From NCBI GenBank assembly GCA_017621055.1, contig JAGATX010000005.1:1-48735 (forward strand): DNA of 48,735 nucleotides, read 5' to 3'. The position numbers and the translations under genes were made by a program. Of the stretch, positions 149 through 8,419 are shown one piece after another; positions within the stretch are counted from its first letter, which is position 1, and each line of letters opens with the position of its first letter. A model generated the notes under the pieces. It saw nothing but the letters and a program-made list of their open reading frames with translations, was not told where the DNA came from and searched no databases. Source of the DNA: Muribaculaceae bacterium (GTDB taxonomy: Bacteria; Bacteroidota; Bacteroidia; Bacteroidales; Muribaculaceae).

Positions 149-218
149 TTATATTAGTAAAATTAATCTTGACAATTAGCCACGATAATGCACAAGCACT
201 ACCGGGGCTTTTAAGTTG

Positions 219-290
<72 letters not shown>

Positions 291-301
291 AAAAAATAAA
301 G

Positions 302-374
302 AGCGGAAGACGAGGCTCAAACTCGCGACCCTCAGCTTGGAAGGCTGATGCTCTATCAACTGAGCTACTTCCGC
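302..374 (-). tRNA. tRNA-Gly(TCC)
   Basis: The reverse complement starts GCGGAAG and ends CTTCCGC plus a T discriminator, a full 7-bp acceptor stem. The anticodon stem TCAGC/GCTGA encloses CTTCCAA, giving anticodon TCC (Gly GGA). The T-loop is TTTGAGC. CCA is not encoded. It is the third tRNA of the tuf operon, 11 nt from tRNA-Thr(GGT). Confidence 0.95.
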
Positions 375-392
375 GTAAGAGAAAAAAGATTG

Positions 393-475
393 TGGGCGAA
401 GATGGATTCGAACCACCGAAGGAATTATCCAGCAGATTTACAGTCTGCCCCATTTGGCCACTCTGGTATTCGCCC
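393..475 (-). tRNA. tRNA-Tyr(GTA)
   Basis: A class II tRNA with a long variable arm: acceptor GGGCGAA/TTCGCCC with an A discriminator, anticodon loop CTGTAAA (GTA, Tyr), and T-loop TTCGAAT. At 83 nt it has the usual tRNA-Tyr length. CCA is not encoded. Confidence 0.95.
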
Positions 476-527
476 GATTATACAGCCTCCGCGACACTGC
501 GGCCGACGAGTGGATGCCGTAATCAAG

Positions 528-601
528 AGCCTCTTGTCGGATTCGAACCAACGACCCCGAGATTACAAATCACGTGCTCTGGCCAACTGAGCTAAAGAGG
601 C
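528..601 (-). tRNA. tRNA-Thr(TGT)
   Basis: Acceptor GCCTCTT/AAGAGGC with a T discriminator, anticodon loop TTTGTAA (anticodon TGT, Thr ACA), and T-arm GTTGG/CCGAC. The anticodon stem has one T-T opposition in the middle. CCA is not encoded. This is the first RNA of the operon; its 5' end is about 45 nt after the predicted transcription start. Confidence 0.94.
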
Positions 602-2088: not shown

Positions 2089-3627
2089 TCAGATGGCGCG
2101 GATCAGGGCTGCGGGGCTGAGGTCTGTCACAGCCTGGAGAGCCTGTGCCTTTGCCGGGTCTGCTTCGAGACCTCCCAGACCGTTGGCGTAGCAGTCGGCC
2201 AGACGATGAGCGGCCAGGGCACTGAGCATGCCTATCTCGTACGCTTTGTTGTACCAGCGGACGGCCTGTTCGAAGTCCTGCTCCACGCCACGACCTTCAT
2301 AGTACAGCCCGGCGAGGGCGCACATTGCAGGGCCGTATCCGGCCTCTGCGGCGGCGGTGTAGTTCTCGACGGCCTTGACCAGGTCGCGCTCGGTGCCTGT
2401 AGCCGTTTCGAGCATGCGGGCATACTGAAGCTGCGCGGGAGCAAAGCCGGCCTCGGCGGCTGTCTTGACTTCCTTGAATGCCTTGGTATCGCTGTGTTTG
2501 TTATAAGCTGTATCGAGATATGCCAGACCCTGCCAGAGTTTGCCCTCGGCGCTTTGGTTGCGCGCCAGGCGTTTGAACTCGTTGAAAGCTTCGTGCAGCG
2601 AGTCGTTCATCATCAGCTGGCGTCCGCGCAGATATACGGCGAAATCGGTTCCGGCAATGCTGTCGCTGACATATTTGAGGAACTTGCGGTTGGACGACTG
2701 TCGGGCGGCGAGAGCGAAATAGAGCATGGCGTTGTCGTAGTCCACGGGGCAGAGGGTGCCTTCGACATTGGCGCGTGCCACCTCCCACGATGCCCGCGGG
2801 CTGCCGGCGCCGGCGGCACGGCGGTACCACATCAGGGCATTTTCGGGGCTTGCCGTCAGGCCCTTGCCATGGAGATAGCACTGACCGAGGAGATACATGG
2901 CGTTGGCATGGCCACGACGGGCGGCGACAAGCAGCATATCGGCGGCTCGTCCGGGATTGGCGGCCACGCCACGGCCGTCGAGGAGCATGGACGCGGCGAA
3001 GTAGTTGGCGTTGAGGTCACCTTGCCCGGCGGCGATATTGAACCAGCGGTAAGCCTCGCTGAAATTGCGCTTGTTGTAGTAGCACAGCGCCAGACGGTCT
3101 ATATTCTCTACGGAGCCTGCCTGCGCGCAGGTGGTGAGGTAAGGAATGGCCTGATCGGGATAGACGGTAACGCCGCCGCGGGTGCGGCTCATCGATTCGG
3201 CAATGATTGCCGAGCAGAACACGTTGCCGCTGTCTGCCTGAGTGGTGAGATACTGGCGGAGGCCTTCGTTGCCTTGTTTAAGAGAGCGGAGAATGAGTTT
3301 TGTGGAACGAACGGAGTCGACTTCCACGCCGTTGCCGTTGGCATAGCATATGCCGAGGTTGCCGGTAGCGGCGGCATTGCCTTGGTTTGCGGCGCGCAAC
3401 CACCACTGCACTGCCTGATTATAGTCCTGCAGGACGTTTACGCCGTTATAATACCACAGTCCGACTTCGGTCTGAGCATTGGCGTCGCCGTCGAGGGCCT
3501 GACGGTAGATTGCCTGTATGCTGTCGTTGACAAGCGGAGGAGTGGCTGTGCTGTCGGCCGGTGTCTGAGCGTGGGCGGCCACGCCCAAGAGCATTGCCAG
3601 TGCTAATATGATGAATGATTTTTTCAT
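2089..3627 (-). CDS. Exported Sel1-repeat (SLR/TPR-like) protein
   Basis: 512 residues with a signal peptide (MKKSFIILALAMLLGVAAHA) and no lipobox cysteine. The rest is Sel1-like repeats of about 36 residues: units with LGICYANGNGVE, LGQCYLHGKGLT, LAGLYYEGRGVEQDFEQAVRWYNKA and LADCYANG are clear. Sel1 repeats form alpha solenoids that serve as protein-protein scaffolds, here probably periplasmic or at the outer membrane. It is the last gene of the FHA/PP2C signalling run, 21 bases after the phosphatase gene, so co-transcription is likely. Its partner is unknown. Confidence 0.88.
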   Translation of the reverse strand: MKKSFIILALAMLLGVAAHAQTPADSTATPPLVNDSIQAIYRQALDGDANAQTEVGLWYYNGVNVLQDYNQAVQWWLRAANQGNAAATGNLGICYANGNGVEVDSVRSTKLILRSLKQGNEGLRQYLTTQADSGNVFCSAIIAESMSRTRGGVTVYPDQAIPYLTTCAQAGSVENIDRLALCYYNKRNFSEAYRWFNIAAGQGDLNANYFAASMLLDGRGVAANPGRAADMLLVAARRGHANAMYLLGQCYLHGKGLTASPENALMWYRRAAGAGSPRASWEVARANVEGTLCPVDYDNAMLYFALAARQSSNRKFLKYVSDSIAGTDFAVYLRGRQLMMNDSLHEAFNEFKRLARNQSAEGKLWQGLAYLDTAYNKHSDTKAFKEVKTAAEAGFAPAQLQYARMLETATGTERDLVKAVENYTAAAEAGYGPAMCALAGLYYEGRGVEQDFEQAVRWYNKAYEIGMLSALAAHRLADCYANGLGGLEADPAKAQALQAVTDLSPAALIRAI

Positions 3628-3648
3628 TGTCGTTCGGTTAGAGACTGT

Positions 3649-4602
3649 TCAGAAAAAATTAGAGAACCAACCTGTGAGTTTTTCCTTAGCGCCGGGCTTA
3701 TGCTGGGCGGTGACTTCCTCCGCCACGGGTTCGGCGGGCTCGATAATGCGGGTGTCGACACCCTCGGCGGGTTCGGCATCAGGGTCGGCAGCGGCGGCGT
3801 TCTCCTCAAGCTGCTTTGTCATGGTTTCGAAATCCACGCCGCCTACGCTCTGGACGGGCACCAGGAAGGCCGTGTTGTTGTCAGTACTGCCGGCAGTGTG
3901 CTCGGCAAGTATGGCGGCCATTTCGTCGACGGGCTTGCGGGTATCCACCAGCGATGCCAGGTCGGCGTCTGTAATCTCGTGGAGCACGCCGTCGGAGCAC
4001 AGCAGGAACACATCGCCGGGAAGGACATCGGTAATGTTCATAGTGGTGGCCTCGGAGCGTTCGCCCGGATTGGAGCCGCCCATGCAGCGGGTGATGACAT
4101 TGCTCTTGGGGTGGTTGATGGCGTCCTCGGGGCTGATCATGCCGTTGCGCACCATAACGTTCACCAGGGAGTGGTCGTATGTGCGGAATACCACGCCGAC
4201 GCCCGGACGTATCTGGTAAATGCGGCTGTCGCCGATATGCGCCACCATTATGCCTCCTGCATGGGCAACCAGCAGTGTAAGGGTGGTTGCCATGCCCAGC
4301 GATGCGCCGCGATTAACCTTTTCGAGGGCGTCGTATCCGGCATTGAGGGCATATGCCAGGTCTGTGACGGTGAATTCCCGGCTGAGGTCGTAGTGGCCGA
4401 TGAACTCGCCCATGGCCTTTGCCACGGTGGAGCTTGCCACCTCGCCTTTGTCGAGGCCACCCACGCCGTCGCATACTATGAAGCAGCGTTGAGTGCCCGA
4501 CGGATGGTCGGTGTCGGGATACCGGGCGTCCTCCTGGTTCTGGCGCTGGCCTATCTGGTAATAGCCGGCGGCACGTCCGAGTTTTATATCAAGATTTTTC
4601 AT
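3649..4602 (-). CDS. PP2C-family Ser/Thr protein phosphatase
   Basis: 317 residues. All metal-binding motifs of PPM/PP2C phosphatases are visible: E24-D25 (QEDARYPD), D45 in VCDGVGG, HIGDSR around D125, D204 in CSDGV, and D241-N242 in DNNTAFLV. GMATTLTLLV is also typical. The catalytic domain covers about 10-255, followed by an acidic Glu/Ala/Pro-rich tail and a short basic C-terminus. There is no signal peptide or membrane segment, so it is cytoplasmic. It should remove phosphate from Ser/Thr residues. It starts 6 bases after the zinc-ribbon/FHA gene, pairing a phosphatase with a phosphothreonine reader; no kinase is visible in the window. Confidence 0.93.
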   Translation of the reverse strand: MKNLDIKLGRAAGYYQIGQRQNQEDARYPDTDHPSGTQRCFIVCDGVGGLDKGEVASSTVAKAMGEFIGHYDLSREFTVTDLAYALNAGYDALEKVNRGASLGMATTLTLLVAHAGGIMVAHIGDSRIYQIRPGVGVVFRTYDHSLVNVMVRNGMISPEDAINHPKSNVITRCMGGSNPGERSEATTMNITDVLPGDVFLLCSDGVLHEITDADLASLVDTRKPVDEMAAILAEHTAGSTDNNTAFLVPVQSVGGVDFETMTKQLEENAAAADPDAEPAEGVDTRIIEPAEPVAEEVTAQHKPGAKEKLTGWFSNFF

Positions 4603-4608
4603 GCTTGT

Positions 4609-5292
4609 TTACTTTACGGGGTCGAGACGGAGAGAAGTGCGACCGAGCTTGATGATGTCGCCGAAGTTTAGATACGGCTCGTCGTATTTCAGGTCGAGAG
4701 GCTGGTCGTTGAGCATCACCGGATTGGTGCATTTGAGAACCTTGAGCTTGTAGGAATAGCCCTTGAGTTCGTCGCGGCCAACGGTAATTTTTATGCTGCG
4801 TCGGCTGATGCAGTCATCGCCAGATATCGAAATGTCGGAGGGCTGCGAGCTGTCGGGGCGCCCTATGATATTATCGCCCAGCGGCAGGTCGTAGGTCTTG
4901 TTGAAGCTGAACATGGAACCGAGCTGAGTGAGTTTAGCCTTGCCCATCTTTTTGGAGACGATAGTCTCGGTTTTTGTGGGTTGCGAAGCGTCGGGGGCGG
5001 CCGCTGCGGGAGCCACGCCGGGGCCGGCAACGCGTATGCCGCCGAAAGGAGGAGGTACGGGAGCACCGGCTCCGCGCGGGGCTGCGGCGGGTGCGGGCGC
5101 GGCAGGTGCGGCGGCGGGCGCGGCAGGAGCGGCAGGCGCGGCGCCTAACTTGTCCTGTCCGTCAAGCCGGAGCTGATGCTGGAATTTGCAGTGTGGGCAG
5201 GTGATTTTGTACACCCCCGATATGAGCGGACGCTTGGGTGTGATGGGCTGTTTGCAATTGGGACAGGGATAAACGAGTTTTTCGGTAGCCAT
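4609..5292 (-). CDS. Zinc-ribbon / FHA-domain protein
   Basis: 227 residues. N-terminal zinc ribbon with paired CPNC (10-13) and CPHC (33-36) motifs, then an Ala/Pro-rich linker (about 50-105), then a C-terminal FHA domain (about 130-225) with core IIGRPDSSQPSD and ISRRSIKI. FHA domains bind phosphothreonine peptides. In this copy the usual SxxH is SRRS, so the conserved histidine is replaced, which may weaken or change binding. No membrane segment is visible. It lies directly upstream of the PP2C gene and 92 bases downstream of the Pro/Ala-rich membrane protein gene. Confidence 0.88.
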   Translation of the reverse strand: MATEKLVYPCPNCKQPITPKRPLISGVYKITCPHCKFQHQLRLDGQDKLGAAPAAPAAPAAAPAAPAPAAAPRGAGAPVPPPFGGIRVAGPGVAPAAAAPDASQPTKTETIVSKKMGKAKLTQLGSMFSFNKTYDLPLGDNIIGRPDSSQPSDISISGDDCISRRSIKITVGRDELKGYSYKLKVLKCTNPVMLNDQPLDLKYDEPYLNFGDIIKLGRTSLRLDPVK

Positions 5293-5384
5293 GGGGTTGA
5301 AACCTGAGGATAAATAGGTTTATTTTTTTGTGAAGGCGGCCCGCACTCCGGGAAGTAAATCCGGGAGCCGGGCCTGTAAGATAA

Positions 5385-6272
5385 TCAGACGAGGATATCC
5401 TGCGAGGGGTCGATGTCGGTAGAGAAGTCATCGCTGGCGGCCATATATTCGGCCGGGTCTGAGAGCTGTTCCTCGATGTCGTCCACGGTATAACCGCCGG
5501 CATCGGCAATGGGTGTGCCCTCGCTGTCGACAATGAGATCCATGATGCCGTCGTTGTCGACGTCGACCATAGCGTAGTCGGAGCCGCCGTCGGTGAATGT
5601 CGCAACAGTCATCTCGTCGCCGTCGATGTTATATACGGTGCCTATCTCGGCGAAGTCGAAGAGGTTCTCGGGGTCGATGTCGTTGGGATCCACAAGTTCT
5701 TCGGCAAGAATCTCGTCGACCTGCTGGTTGGCTTCCTCGTTGCTGATGGGCTCATAAGCAGTCTGGATCGGTGTGCCGGCGGGCTCCTGGGGCGCGGGGT
5801 TGGCGGCAATGTTGCTCTCCTGACTGCCGGTATCCACAGTAACCGATTCAGGTGCGGGAGCGGGTTCGGGCTCGGGAGCGGGTGCCGGCTCAGGCGCGGG
5901 TGCGGGTGCAGGCGCGGGTGCGGGTGCGGGTGCAGGCGCGGGAGCGGGTGCAGGCTCAGGCGCGGGAGTAGGCTGGGCGATGTGCTCGTCGTTGGGGTCG
6001 GGAGTCTGGGTCTCGGCGAAGGGATCGTTTACGAGTTCGTCTTCTGCAACCTCGTCGTTATTGAAATAGTTGGCGGCGGCGAAACCGGCGGCGCCGGCGG
6101 CAAGACCGGCAGCGGCAGCGGCACCGGCAACCTTTTCGGCAGTGTGGGGGTTCTTTGCTGCGTGGGCGGCGGGGCGCTGCGGACGGGCGTTCATATCGTC
6201 GCGGGCGGGAGCGCCGTTATTGTTCATAGCTTCGGGGTTGAAGGGGGGAGGGGTGAGGGGTTTCGTTTCCAT
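5385..6272 (-). CDS. Pro/Ala-rich membrane protein with DxDxDG motif
   Basis: 295 residues from the ATG at 6270-6272, preferred over the upstream in-frame ATG at 6338 because a full promoter (6309-6339) overlaps the longer version. Order: Pro/Asn-rich N-terminus; Ala/Gly-rich hydrophobic stretch (48-68), a likely membrane helix without signal peptide; acidic segment; a Pro-Ala/Pro-Glu repeat tract (about 95-150) that would extend like a stalk; and a folded C-terminal part with DVDNDG, an EF-hand-type calcium-loop pattern. No family was recognised. It heads the operon with the FHA, PP2C and Sel1 genes, so it may be the membrane component or substrate of that module. Confidence 0.75.
   Translation of the reverse strand: METKPLTPPPFNPEAMNNNGAPARDDMNARPQRPAAHAAKNPHTAEKVAGAAAAAGLAAGAAGFAAANYFNNDEVAEDELVNDPFAETQTPDPNDEHIAQPTPAPEPAPAPAPAPAPAPAPAPAPAPEPAPAPEPEPAPAPESVTVDTGSQESNIAANPAPQEPAGTPIQTAYEPISNEEANQQVDEILAEELVDPNDIDPENLFDFAEIGTVYNIDGDEMTVATFTDGGSDYAMVDVDNDGIMDLIVDSEGTPIADAGGYTVDDIEEQLSDPAEYMAASDDFSTDIDPSQDILV
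5862..5965. repeat. Pro-Ala coding repeat tract
   Basis: An imperfect array of six-base units GGTGCG/GGCGCG/GGTGCA (plus strand) encoding alternating Pro-Ala with occasional Pro-Glu. Such in-frame arrays can change length by slippage without a frameshift. Confidence 0.7.
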
Positions 6273-6308
6273 GACTTGAAGTTTTTTTGTTTGTTTGTTT
6301 TTCTGATG

Positions 6309-6339
6309 CAAATTTAAGGCGGCTTTGTTGCCCGGCAAA
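6309..6339 (-). promoter_or_regulatory. Promoter of the Pro/Ala-FHA-PP2C-Sel1 operon
   Basis: Minus strand TTTG (6336-6339), 19-base spacer, TAAATTTG (6309-6316). The predicted start near 6303 gives a leader of about 31 nt and supports the ATG at 6272. It shows that the signalling cluster consists of at least two transcription units. Confidence 0.8.
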
Positions 6340-6350
6340 ATTTTCAGAGG

Positions 6351-6423
6351 GTTTTTGGACGAAACCCCGGGGTTTTTGGACGAACTTGCATTTTCAGCAA
6401 GCGAAGTGCTTGAAAAACCCCGG
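6351..6423. repeat. Structured intercistronic element with direct and inverted repeats
   Basis: GTTTTTGGACGAA occurs at 6351-6363 and again at 6372-6384 (21-base period). CCGGGGTTTTT (6367-6377) is the inverted complement of AAAAACCCCGG (6413-6423), and the loop holds a small AAGC/GCTT hairpin. It sits between the caspase gene stop and the next promoter, so it could terminate the upstream unit, bind a regulator of the downstream unit, or both. Confidence 0.6.
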
Positions 6424-6452
6424 AAATCAGCCGCCCTGTATCATCGGAAAAA

Positions 6453-7178
6453 TCAGTCGTTCCAGTCGGCGACAACGACGTCGAACATTTCGCGGGGAGC
6501 TATCAGCTGCGGATGCTGCTGCGAGTCACTGCGGCGAACAACATCCACATATATATAATCGAAGAGCTCGCGCACGGTGATGCGGCGGTCATGGTTGCGG
6601 TCGGACGACCCGCGAAGACCCTTGACGAGTGCCTGGGCCAGGAAACCGGCGCCTATCCACGGTGACTCTATGGAATACTCGTCGGCACGGCTCGATACGA
6701 AGAAAGCGGTGCCGGGCATGCTCATGCCCGAATACTCGTTGTTTGCCGACGTGGCAGCGGCGGCGCTGCCGGCATGGCAGGCGTCGATAAAGCAAATTTT
6801 GCTGGAGGCTGCGCTGCCCTCGAGGGCCTCTACGATGGAGGAATACGGCAAGGCGCCGTTGTATGTATACAGGGCGTTGGGCATGCCGTGGCCACTGTAG
6901 AAAAATATTATCATATCGCCGGCCTGCGCGCGGTTGCAGATGGCGTTGAGTTTCTCCATTATGTTCTCGCGTGTGGCATAGCTGCTGGTGAGCATGGTTA
7001 TATCGCGCGTCTGGGTCTGTATCACCTGTTTGAAGCGCTTGGCGTCTTTGGTGGTCTGACTCAGGTTTGTCCGTTCGTCGTCGTAGTTCGACACTGCAGA
7101 TATCAGCACATAAGTGCGTGCCTGGGCACCTATGGCAATTGCCGCGACAAGCAGCAGAAGGGTGAGTATCCGTTTCAT
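6453..7178 (-). CDS. Exported caspase-like (C14) peptidase
   Basis: 241 residues with an N-terminal signal peptide (MKRILTLLLLVAAIAIGAQA) and one caspase-like domain. The catalytic dyad is intact: H97 in FFYSGHGM and C134 in FIDACHAGS. The early strand YVLISAVSNYDD and the later FFVSSRADEYS match metacaspase/caspase-fold proteins. Family members cleave after Arg/Lys or Asp and are often activated by processing. The signal peptide places it in the periplasm or outside the cell, unlike the cytoplasmic FHA and PP2C domains next to it. It lies 49 bases downstream of the membrane FHA gene and is probably transcribed with it and the LytTR gene. Its substrate is unknown. Confidence 0.92.
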   Translation of the reverse strand: MKRILTLLLLVAAIAIGAQARTYVLISAVSNYDDERTNLSQTTKDAKRFKQVIQTQTRDITMLTSSYATRENIMEKLNAICNRAQAGDMIIFFYSGHGMPNALYTYNGALPYSSIVEALEGSAASSKICFIDACHAGSAAAATSANNEYSGMSMPGTAFFVSSRADEYSIESPWIGAGFLAQALVKGLRGSSDRNHDRRITVRELFDYIYVDVVRRSDSQQHPQLIAPREMFDVVVADWND

Positions 7179-7227
7179 GGCCTTGACTTTTTTAGCCTGT
7201 TTTATTTTCCTATATTATTAATGTATA

Positions 7228-7941
7228 TCATATATGGCTTCGGCAGCGCGGGCAACGGCCCTGTGCGATATCGTCGTCGCCGAGTCGGGCATTGCACTGG
7301 GGGTTGGGGCAGCGCAGACGTTTGCGGCGCTCGGCAAAGCGGTCGCGGTCGCCCAGGACGATACCCACCAGAATACTCAGGCCGATAGGCACGCACACCA
7401 TCATCACTCGCGTGGCGTTCATCTCCTTCTGACTGTTGGACTTGGTGAGCTGCAGTTCTTGTTCGGGCGTGGCGCCGGCAGGAATATCCTCTACGAAGAG
7501 CGGCGCTATTGCGAAGGCCAGCACCAGAGCCAGACCCGAGCCGAACATGCGCACCTTGTCCCATATCTTAGATTTCTTCTTGAAAGCGCGCTCATCGGCC
7601 TGAAGAGTTTCCAGCTCGCTCTGCAGGGCCAGAAATTCCTGCTTGAACTTCAGAGGGTCGCTCTGCTGGCCCAGCACATTGCGGGCATAGAAGCGGAAAC
7701 CCGCCGAGTTGTTGGCGCCCAACACCAGGATGGTATCGGGCGTTATGCGTTTTCTGCCAACCTGAACAAGCTGGCCGTCGGGCTGCTGCACAAACAGCGG
7801 ATTGGTATTGGATAGCGACTCCACCACCCAGGCACCGTCGTCGAGGATGGTGATTTTGGCGTGCTCATGGCTTACGGCATAGCTCGTTTCGGGGATGACA
7901 AGGGTTTCGCGGTGCGATTTACCCACAATAAATTCCTGCAT
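7228..7941 (-). CDS. Membrane-anchored FHA protein with C-terminal zinc ribbon
   Basis: 237 residues. N-terminal FHA-like domain (1-95) with GKSHRE and VSHEHAKITIL, which keeps the SxxH core. Then a charged, probably coiled-coil stretch (about 85-118), a first hydrophobic helix (MFGSGLALVLAFAIAPLFVE), a polar loop of about 24 residues, a second helix (MMVCVPIGLSILVGIVLG), and a C-terminal ribbon with CPNPQC and CPRC. Both termini should face the cytoplasm, with a short periplasmic loop. The zinc-ribbon plus FHA combination recurs, in reversed order, in the gene at 4609-5292. It starts 4 bases after the LytTR gene stop, so the two are translated from one transcript. Confidence 0.88.
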   Translation of the reverse strand: MQEFIVGKSHRETLVIPETSYAVSHEHAKITILDDGAWVVESLSNTNPLFVQQPDGQLVQVGRKRITPDTILVLGANNSAGFRFYARNVLGQQSDPLKFKQEFLALQSELETLQADERAFKKKSKIWDKVRMFGSGLALVLAFAIAPLFVEDIPAGATPEQELQLTKSNSQKEMNATRVMMVCVPIGLSILVGIVLGDRDRFAERRKRLRCPNPQCNARLGDDDIAQGRCPRCRSHI

Positions 7942-7945
7942 AGTC

Positions 7946-8356
7946 TTACTTTTCGTCGGCTGTGACTTGAGCGACGCTCTCTGTTTTTTCAGCGCGTCCG
8001 TTGCGTCGGCTCAGTATGTCTTTATATTGTTTTAGAATTGGTTTGGGCGCCTCCAGATTGATGACGTGGCCCTGGCAGTCGGAGAGCTCAAGTTTCTGCG
8101 CTATGACGTTCACACGCGACACATAGCTCTGATTGATAATCAGGCTCCGGCCCAGACGTATCATAGGCGAGGGGCGGTCGGCCGGCCATGCCCGCTTGAG
8201 ATATTCCTCGATTTTGCTCAGTCCTATGCCCACCAGCGGGCCTTTCGAGCCCATATAGAGCACCTGCGTATAGTTGCCGCTCGCCTGAAGGCAAGCAAGC
8301 TTCTGCAGGTCTATGATAAGCATTTCGTCACGGCTGTTAAGGCATAACTTGTACAT
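7946..8356 (-). CDS. Stand-alone LytTR DNA-binding protein
   Basis: 136 residues. A LytTR domain covers about 1-105; the core MIRLGRSLIINQSYVSRVN matches the family signature of an Arg-x-x-Arg/Ser turn followed by a conserved Asn. No receiver domain or membrane segment is present, so activity is not controlled by a standard phospho-acceptor on the same chain. A basic, then acidic tail ends the protein. It is first in the unit with the membrane FHA protein and the caspase, and could be autoregulatory or report the state of the FHA system. Confidence 0.9.
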   Translation of the reverse strand: MYKLCLNSRDEMLIIDLQKLACLQASGNYTQVLYMGSKGPLVGIGLSKIEEYLKRAWPADRPSPMIRLGRSLIINQSYVSRVNVIAQKLELSDCQGHVINLEAPKPILKQYKDILSRRNGRAEKTESVAQVTADEK

Positions 8357-8385
8357 AATCTGAGTGCAATAATTGGTTTAATGTG

Positions 8386-8419
8386 CAAAAATAAGTTTTT
8401 TTTTCGATATTTCAACAAA
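8386..8419 (-). promoter_or_regulatory. Probable promoter of the LytTR-FHA-caspase unit
   Basis: Minus strand TATTTTTG (8386-8393) with TTTG (8416-8419) 22 bases upstream, slightly longer than the usual 19-21. The predicted leader is about 25 nt. Confidence 0.55.

Follow-up and report, generated by a model that had tools for sequence, protein, structure and literature searches.

A seven-gene block in a Muribaculaceae genome appears to encode parts of a signalling system that recurs in gut Bacteroidales and is apparently undescribed. The window, the whole stretch of DNA that was analysed, comprises 48,735 nucleotides (contig JAGATX010000005.1). The block spans positions 2089..8419, where open reading frames and Pfam matches bear out an earlier note's description of seven adjacent minus-strand genes. 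Since the same gene set is found again in other species, the block is more than a chance assembly. We consider it somewhat probable that it is a hub on which receptor kinases converge in a phosphothreonine circuit, with an exported caspase and a LytTR regulator as outputs. The features of the block, all on the minus strand, are as follows.

8386..8419, minus: Bacteroidota-type promoter match (TTTG-N-TAnnTTTG, pattern match), before the LytTR gene
7946..8356, minus: stand-alone LytTR DNA-binding regulator, first gene of the block (Pfam and family alignment)
7228..7941, minus: FHA-TM protein, with an FHA domain (Pfam FHA, 1.7e-05), two hydrophobic segments (by eye) and a C-terminal four-Cys zinc ribbon
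6453..7178, minus: exported caspase (peptidase C14; Pfam, 6.9e-18), with a signal-peptide-like N-terminus and His97/Cys134
6309..6339, minus: second Bacteroidota-type promoter match (pattern match), before the Pro/Ala gene
5385..6272, minus: Pro/Ala protein, with an N-terminal Thr motif (METKPL), a Gly/Ala-rich membrane segment, a variable linker and a C-terminal DxDxDG region (alignment); the gene most likely starts at 6272
4609..5292, minus: zinc ribbon-FHA protein, with a zinc ribbon, a linker carrying a conserved Thr, and an FHA domain (Pfam FHA, 7.8e-05)
3649..4602, minus: PP2C Ser/Thr phosphatase (Pfam PP2C_2, 1.2e-11)
2089..3627, minus: Sel1-repeat protein, probably exported (Pfam Sel1, 5.6e-48)

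The active-site residues of the two enzymes are conserved, in line with the intact sites that had been noted from the window alone. The His-Cys dyad of the caspase (His97 and Cys134) is invariant in all 11 aligned sequences, window copy included. An N-terminal hydrophobic segment is present in 81/81 family members from 80 related loci (see below), and metacaspase and legumain chains are among the PDB relatives of the protein. In the phosphatase, the Asp residues typical of the metal site are invariant in 13/13 aligned sequences. The caspase and the PP2C_2 domain each have a single match in their own genome, located in the block. Of the 295 genomes in an order-wide sample, 87 have a caspase match at E<=1e-15 and 10 at E<=1e-40. 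The LytTR copy in the window is below the Pfam cut-off (E = 0.027) and was identified as a stand-alone regulator through its aligned relatives: 29 of 30 aligned members match PF04397 at E<=0.01 (best 1.1e-13), the window copy being the sole exception. The Sel1 protein had been taken for a scaffold; its N-terminus resembles a signal peptide by eye, so the protein is probably exported, not cytosolic.

Both FHA domains score above the Pfam cut-off. The FHA-site Gly, Ser, His and Asn, together with the four cysteines, are conserved in the alignment of the FHA-TM family. Lys replaces the usual FHA Arg in the window protein, as in 23 of the 65 aligned sequences. In the zinc ribbon-FHA protein of the window, Ser takes the place of the usual His (Ser in 22/67 aligned), and a linker Thr precedes the FHA domain in 52/67 members of this family. 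The Pro/Ala protein matches no Pfam family above cut-off. Its DxDxDG loop, recognised earlier, is a C-terminal LVDVDxDGxxD-like element conserved in a 20-row alignment. An N-in/C-out topology is predicted, with more positive charge before the membrane segment than after it in 70/70 sequences. Motifs resembling acidic-T-x-hydrophobic are found at the cytosolic tip of this protein, as placed by the predicted topology, and before the FHA domain of the zinc ribbon-FHA protein.

The recurrence of the gene set was examined in 80 loci, the best 80 of at least 389 caspase relatives, mostly from Bacteroidales records; they are thus selected by likeness to the window, and near-identical loci (e.g. L113, L114, L116 and L121) were kept among them. 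The LytTR, two FHA, Pro/Ala and PP2C families recur around these ∼80 related caspases, and all six core families occur together in 25 of the 32 loci that extend 7.5 kb or more in both directions. The families are thus found together in related genomes, the point on which the earlier note had staked its reading. Sel1 proteins are present in 27/80 loci; the Sel1 and Pro/Ala profiles describe repeat or low-complexity families and may over-count (170 and 106 hits, respectively, in 90 loci). Recurrent unlabelled neighbours include FGE-sulfatase-type, LRR and small secreted proteins (by eye; one was run through Pfam).

The block had been described as lacking a writer kinase. A kinase is encoded within the stretch around the caspase in 62 of the 80 loci, and in 29 of the 32 well-covered ones. 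For the window itself, 12 Pkinase matches above cut-off lie on other contigs of the same genome, versus one PP2C and one caspase; a membrane segment was read in nine of the 12. In translations read by eye, the Lys, HLDIKPxN and DFG motifs of catalytically intact kinases are visible. Within the genus, the median number of kinase matches is 6 in genomes with the system caspase (n = 11) and 2 in those without (n = 30; p = 3.6e-5), counts that include gene fragments and other kinase families; the difference persists when the own genome is removed (p = 9e-5) and when genomes at least 90% complete are compared (10 vs 19; p = 7e-4). Pfam searches of 104 kinase tails, which remained after removal of short, 3'-truncated and motif-less ones, revealed a diverse set, with lectin-like folds beside TonB_C, OmpA, FKBP, MORN, Sel1 and LRR domains. 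Unlinked kinases gathered to compare the linker motif (see below) with genomes that lack the system form a small set (13 and 23 recognised) of mixed families, some with an FHA-like C-terminal stretch, so no motif count is given for them.

An acidic-T-x-hydrophobic motif, specific to Thr, is enriched in kinase linkers. The pattern [DE]x(0-1)Tx[VIL][VILD] occurs in 26 of 103 linkers (94 from relatives and 9 from the own genome) versus 4.3 ± 2.1 in shuffles; it was written after the linkers had been inspected, so the enrichment is descriptive. Its Ser version is found in 2/103 linkers, and the motif itself in 9/93 ectodomain stretches (shuffles 6.4 ± 2.4). In relatives, a general rule of a hydrophobic residue at T+3 shows no enrichment (86 hits vs 86.2 in shuffles). 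The common forms are present in at most one of the nine own-genome kinases, whose form differs: T[RK]P-hydrophobic appears nine times, in 6/9 linkers (shuffles 0.13), and is rare elsewhere (3/96). The Pro/Ala tip of the same genome reads METKPL. Kinase and Pro/Ala motifs of the same locus agree modestly (p = 0.0096; Ser control p = 0.18), and common descent confounds the comparison.

The Bacteroidota-type promoter pattern matches 8 times in the window, compared to 0.30 expected. With starts chosen mechanically and a single-base shuffle, a match was found upstream of 31/98 genes hit by the Pro/Ala profile in relatives (0.2 expected), while the counts were 0/81 for the caspase, 0/67 for the zinc ribbon-FHA protein, 0/59 for PP2C and 1/63 for the FHA-TM protein. 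Co-regulation of the block genes is predicted from this arrangement.

These features suggest how the proposed hub may work. Membrane-spanning Hanks-type kinases with diverse, mostly periplasmic C-terminal domains would sense ligands; they may be encoded in the block or, as in the own genome, elsewhere, so that many kinases would feed one hub. We infer that they phosphorylate Thr in the acidic-T-x-hydrophobic motifs of their own linkers and in the similar motifs at the cytosolic Pro/Ala tip and ahead of the FHA domain in the zinc ribbon-FHA protein. Both FHA proteins would dock on and read these phosphothreonine marks, which PP2C would erase. From there the signal could reach gene expression via LytTR and, on the other side of the inner membrane, the exported periplasmic caspase, putatively under the control of the Pro/Ala protein. 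Several observations speak against this reading: the Lys and Ser substitutions at the window FHA sites, the divergent motif form of the own-genome kinases, the lack of enrichment of the T+3 rule, the modest motif agreement per locus, the mixed make-up of the kinase counts, the three same-genus loci with a reduced gene set (see below), the missing signs of DGRs in the own genome (see below) and the small number of order-wide genomes with a strong caspase match.

Two other accounts concern the integrity of the block. According to the earlier note, it would hold a reader and an eraser of phosphothreonine without any writer. The window block does lack a kinase, as does the stretch covered in 5 of 9 assessable same-genus loci, window included (two more end at contig ends); at the genome scale this account is refuted by the 12 kinase-domain matches on other contigs, and we regard it as barely credible. 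Alternatively, LytTR-FHA-caspase and Pro/Ala-FHA-PP2C-kinase could be two partly independent units placed side by side by convenience, in line with the two promoter matches and with three same-genus loci (L040, L045 and L048) where only LytTR, FHA and caspase genes are nearby. Such a division is unlikely, given that in many related loci the caspase has the Pro/Ala gene on one side and the second FHA gene on the other and that the six families stay together in most well-covered ones.

The biological role of the hub is less certain. The kinases might sense the state of the cell wall or surface, with caspase and Sel1 protein in periplasmic quality control and no part in conflict; we find such envelope homeostasis possible, if doubtful. 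The envelope-type domains beside lectin-like folds in the kinase tails agree with it, as does a GC content of the block (0.586) resembling that of the remaining window (0.571). Targeting of two linked kinases by diversity-generating retroelements (DGRs, see below) suits variable ligands more than a fixed envelope signal, and patchy presence (11/41 same-genus genomes), with no shared flank proteins among the 11 loci (mechanical ORFs in the DNA around them), fits an accessory system. Control of a secretion machine is improbable to a high degree: the locus has the same three activities as the kinase/phosphatase/FHA trio of T6SS, and the FHA-TM protein weakly resembles a TagH-type model (E = 0.0028; 17.5 bits, cut-off 120), but inspection by eye of the genes that recur around the 80 caspases revealed no secretion or T6SS structural genes. 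More tentatively than envelope homeostasis, we suggest that the phosphothreonine hub may serve an immunity circuit built on receptor kinases in gut Bacteroidales, in which variable, lectin-like or other kinase tails, rewritten by DGRs in some species, would signal through a shared phosphothreonine docking code into one FHA/PP2C hub, leading to caspase release and LytTR reprogramming. If kinase tails are indeed recognition domains, hypermutated in some species, a single circuit would join adaptive recognition to bacterial receptor kinases and a caspase.

The tail of a linked kinase is a DGR target in two relatives, L091 and L112, each with a reverse transcriptase (RT), a template repeat and an adenine-biased variable repeat; mismatches between the repeats fall on template adenines in 24/25 and 21/23 cases, respectively. 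RT searches covered all 80 loci internally and 50 of the 80 genomes in full. The own genome has no RVT_1 match, and its kinase tails have no adenine bias. In another genome (G034), seven dispersed kinases carry variable Lcl_C tails; a lone RVT_1 hit, located in a phage-like stretch (by eye), has no meaningful similarity to the tails, and synonymous sites also vary, so a DGR origin is not claimed. G349, G345 and G370 (L168-L170) also have RT matches, whose targeting of system kinases was not established; L169 is prophage-like.

The coupling of phospho-signalling to an exported caspase, flagged earlier as unfamiliar, is recurrent, and the matches listed in our literature search, whose scope excluded most subscription papers, hold no description of such a locus. 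PP2C also acts around the GarA/OdhI switch of actinobacteria. That FHA switch, as far as the portion of PMC12321487 consulted goes, shares Hanks kinases and a Thr motif before the FHA domain; here, in contrast, a zinc ribbon starts the FHA protein, a second FHA protein is membrane-bound, and caspase, LytTR and Pro/Ala proteins are added. Cyanobacterial Ser/Thr kinases have DGR variable regions, and caspase-type peptidases occur in a similar context, according to the sections of PMC7517822 available; there the kinases and orthocaspases are themselves the variable proteins, and the main text has no mention of 'FHA'. In the present system the kinase is a receptor in the membrane and the caspase is exported as a distinct protein; the block also includes FHA, PP2C and LytTR. 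DGR antigen sensors and ternary/STAND conflict systems (available parts of PMC10907252, PMC7159879 and PMC8195603) share CLec sensor domains, caspase-type effectors and occasional kinase or FHA domains, and an actinobacterial kinase-PP2C-vWA neighbourhood is described (PMC7159879, in part). Unlike these, the seven block proteins and three neighbours have no Pfam match to MoxR, vWA or STAND families, the proposed signal is phosphothreonine, and the caspase is exported. The KKP module combines Ser/Thr kinases and a phosphatase for phage defence; it is prophage-encoded, and the opening of the abstract names no caspase, LytTR or receptor part (PMC11341870). Single PADLOC models match the caspase (5.9e-13) and PP2C (PDC-M21C, 3.7e-09), with no full system assembled; mad6 and PD-T4-6 match three kinases (E down to 2e-50), as kinase-domain models match kinases generally.

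The block is also present in two records titled Bacteroides caecigallinarum strains (L114 and L116), so the role of Ser/Thr receptor kinases in gut Bacteroidales is directly testable, with one hub that offers a defined kinase set, candidate sites of phosphorylation and a protease as candidate output.

Seven adjacent genes occupy positions 2089–8356 on the minus strand, the full set described in the earlier note, and five of their products score above the Pfam cut-off:

minus strand, LytTR protein: weak Pfam match in the window copy, PF04397-type support in 29 of 30 family members
minus strand, FHA-TM, an FHA protein with hydrophobic segments and a zinc ribbon: above cut-off
minus strand, caspase with predicted export: above cut-off
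minus strand, Pro/Ala membrane protein (N-terminal Thr motif or tip, membrane segment, C-terminal DxDxDG region): no match to any Pfam family
minus strand, zinc ribbon-FHA protein: above cut-off
minus strand, PP2C phosphatase: above cut-off
minus strand, Sel1 protein, probably exported: above cut-off

The caspase is akin to bacterial caspase, metacaspase and legumain-type peptidases, and its dyad, previously read as intact, is invariant among 11 aligned sequences. The supposed Sel1 scaffold keeps its family assignment but is probably an exported protein. A stand-alone HSDR_N-type protein (1533–2012; HSDR_N_2, E=4.4e-31) adjoins the block, and four tRNA genes lie toward the left end of the window (218–601).

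The block recurs in related genomes. Of 41 same-genus genomes, 13 carry a caspase match at E≤1e-5; LytTR and FHA-TM genes adjoin the caspase gene in 11, including the source genome of the window, and the remaining two carry unrelated caspases. Within the available stretches, PP2C is present at five and a kinase at four of these 11 loci, two of which end at contig ends, and no protein among the 92 flank ORFs is common to any two loci. Among the best 80 of 389 related loci, nearly all from records named Bacteroidales and many interrupted by contig ends, we found the Pro/Ala protein in 69, zinc ribbon-FHA in 67, FHA-TM in 64, a kinase in 62, PP2C in 59, LytTR in 54 and Sel1 in 27. At the 32 loci with at least 7.5 kb on each side, the six core families are all present in 25, supporting conserved co-occurrence in Bacteroidales, and a Ser/Thr kinase is linked in 29. 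In an order-wide sample counting caspase matches rather than blocks, 87 of 295 genomes matched at E≤1e-15 and only 10 at E≤1e-40. Two recurrent clusters of secreted proteins lie beside the block, in 20 (one member FGE-sulfatase by Pfam) and 19 (LRR-like by eye) of the 80 loci.

The source genome, a 2.03 Mb assembly of 34 contigs at 93.5% completeness, contains 12 Pkinase matches that pass the cut-off, all of them on contigs other than that of the window; candidates for the writer kinase that had been considered absent thus lie elsewhere in the same genome. Five matches are truncated by contig ends, and one, a 247-aa open frame, appears to be a short non-receptor paralogue. Nine kinases were read as having a membrane segment C-terminal to the kinase domain; most extend into a C-terminal domain (Lcl_C, PPC or TonB_C by Pfam), while one (L019) instead ends in several hydrophobic segments. 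Since several kinases sit at contig ends (contigs C16, C4, C17, C27 and C32 at their ends, C3 at its start), the assembly may lack part of the actual repertoire. The only PP2C and C14 caspase found in this genome are those of the block. The FHA search returned FHA-TM alone and did not pick up the block's other FHA gene; further FHA genes are therefore possible. Across the 41 same-genus genomes, where gene fragments and kinases of other families also enter the counts and the species are not independent data points, the median number of kinase matches is 6 with the system caspase (n=11) versus 2 without (n=30; p=3.6e-5; p=9e-5 omitting the source genome; p=7e-4 for the 10 versus 19 genomes at least 90% complete). 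A different kinase family with an FHA-like end stretch was seen by eye at five same-genus loci (L198, L202, L203, L205, L209). In our judgement this is a kinase-FHA-PP2C circuit of a familiar type; what is new is how it is arranged, with a receptor repertoire, a pair of FHA readers, output through LytTR and a caspase that is exported.

Similar threonine motifs occur in the kinases and their putative partners. Of 103 kinase linkers, 94 of them from relatives and nine from the source genome, 26 contain [DE]x(0-1)Tx[VIL][VILD], compared with 4.3±2.1 in shuffles (maximum 12 of 500), versus two for the Ser version (shuffles 5.4); ectodomain stretches have it in 9 of 93 (shuffles 6.4). A looser form is found in 70 linkers (35.5±4.6), its Ser counterpart in 26 (39.0), and a bare T+3-hydrophobic rule showed no enrichment in relatives' linkers. 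Similar motifs are present at Pro/Ala N-termini (e.g. NEDTVYD, NETTRLI, EDTIYD), and 52 of 67 aligned sequences have a Thr of similar context ahead of the second FHA domain; in actinobacterial GarA, a phosphorylated ETTS motif precedes the FHA domain (PMC12321487). Kinase and Pro/Ala Thr motifs of the same locus are more alike than permuted pairs (13.45 versus 12.14, p=0.0096; Ser, p=0.18), a comparison confounded by descent. The source genome has the variant T[RK]P-hydrophobic, with nine occurrences in six of nine linkers (shuffles 0.13, maximum 2 of 1000), although these copies are not independent because the kinases are paralogues; the form is rare elsewhere (3/96), and the Pro/Ala tip of this genome is METKPL. 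At one locus (genome G022, L210 1481–3469) the unit DDST[KQ]L is repeated four times in tandem in the kinase linker, which may thereby offer several docking sites in an array.

The kinase tails are diverse (Pfam on 104 tails: Lcl_C 9, MORN 8, FGE-sulfatase 7, Sel1 3, FKBP 3, others fewer). In two relatives, L112 (10731–15190) and L091 (3–4048), a diversity-generating retroelement (DGR) has as its variable repeat the Lcl_C tail of a receptor kinase close to the caspase block. After the linked kinase of L112 (10731–12869) come an Avd-like gene and a reverse transcriptase (RT) gene with the template, and 21 of 23 differences between the repeats, in 193 places, fall at template adenines. In L091 (kinase, Avd-like genes, RT, zinc ribbon-FHA, Pro/Ala, caspase, PP2C), 24 of 25 do so. 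RT relatives were found in five of 50 system genomes searched, with a system kinase as demonstrated target only at these two loci; none at E≤1e-20 was found in 27 searched genomes of the same genus and family. Seven dispersed receptor kinases in another genome (G034, L191–L196) carry Lcl_C tails that are related to one another and vary strongly at the tip, with no linked DGR found. A role in conflict or immunity is suggested by the DGR-targeted receptors, the patchy presence and changing location of the system, and the contexts published for DGRs, caspases and kinases from other phyla (including PMC7517822). The circuit may instead have an envelope role.

Positive charge is greater before than after the membrane segment in 70 of 70 Pro/Ala proteins, predicting an N-in/C-out orientation, and 81 of 81 caspases have a hydrophobic N-terminal segment. 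The Thr tip would therefore be cytosolic, and the DxDxDG region would lie on the same side of the membrane as the caspase; the Pro/Ala protein may control this protease. With a Bacteroidota-type promoter pattern, the window has eight matches (0.30 expected), two of them in the block:

8386–8419: promoter match before the LytTR gene
6309–6339: promoter match before the Pro/Ala gene

In relatives, no upstream matches were found for the caspase (0/81), zinc ribbon-FHA (0/67) or PP2C (0/59) genes; they precede FHA-TM in 1/63, LytTR in 4/52 and Pro/Ala in 31/98.
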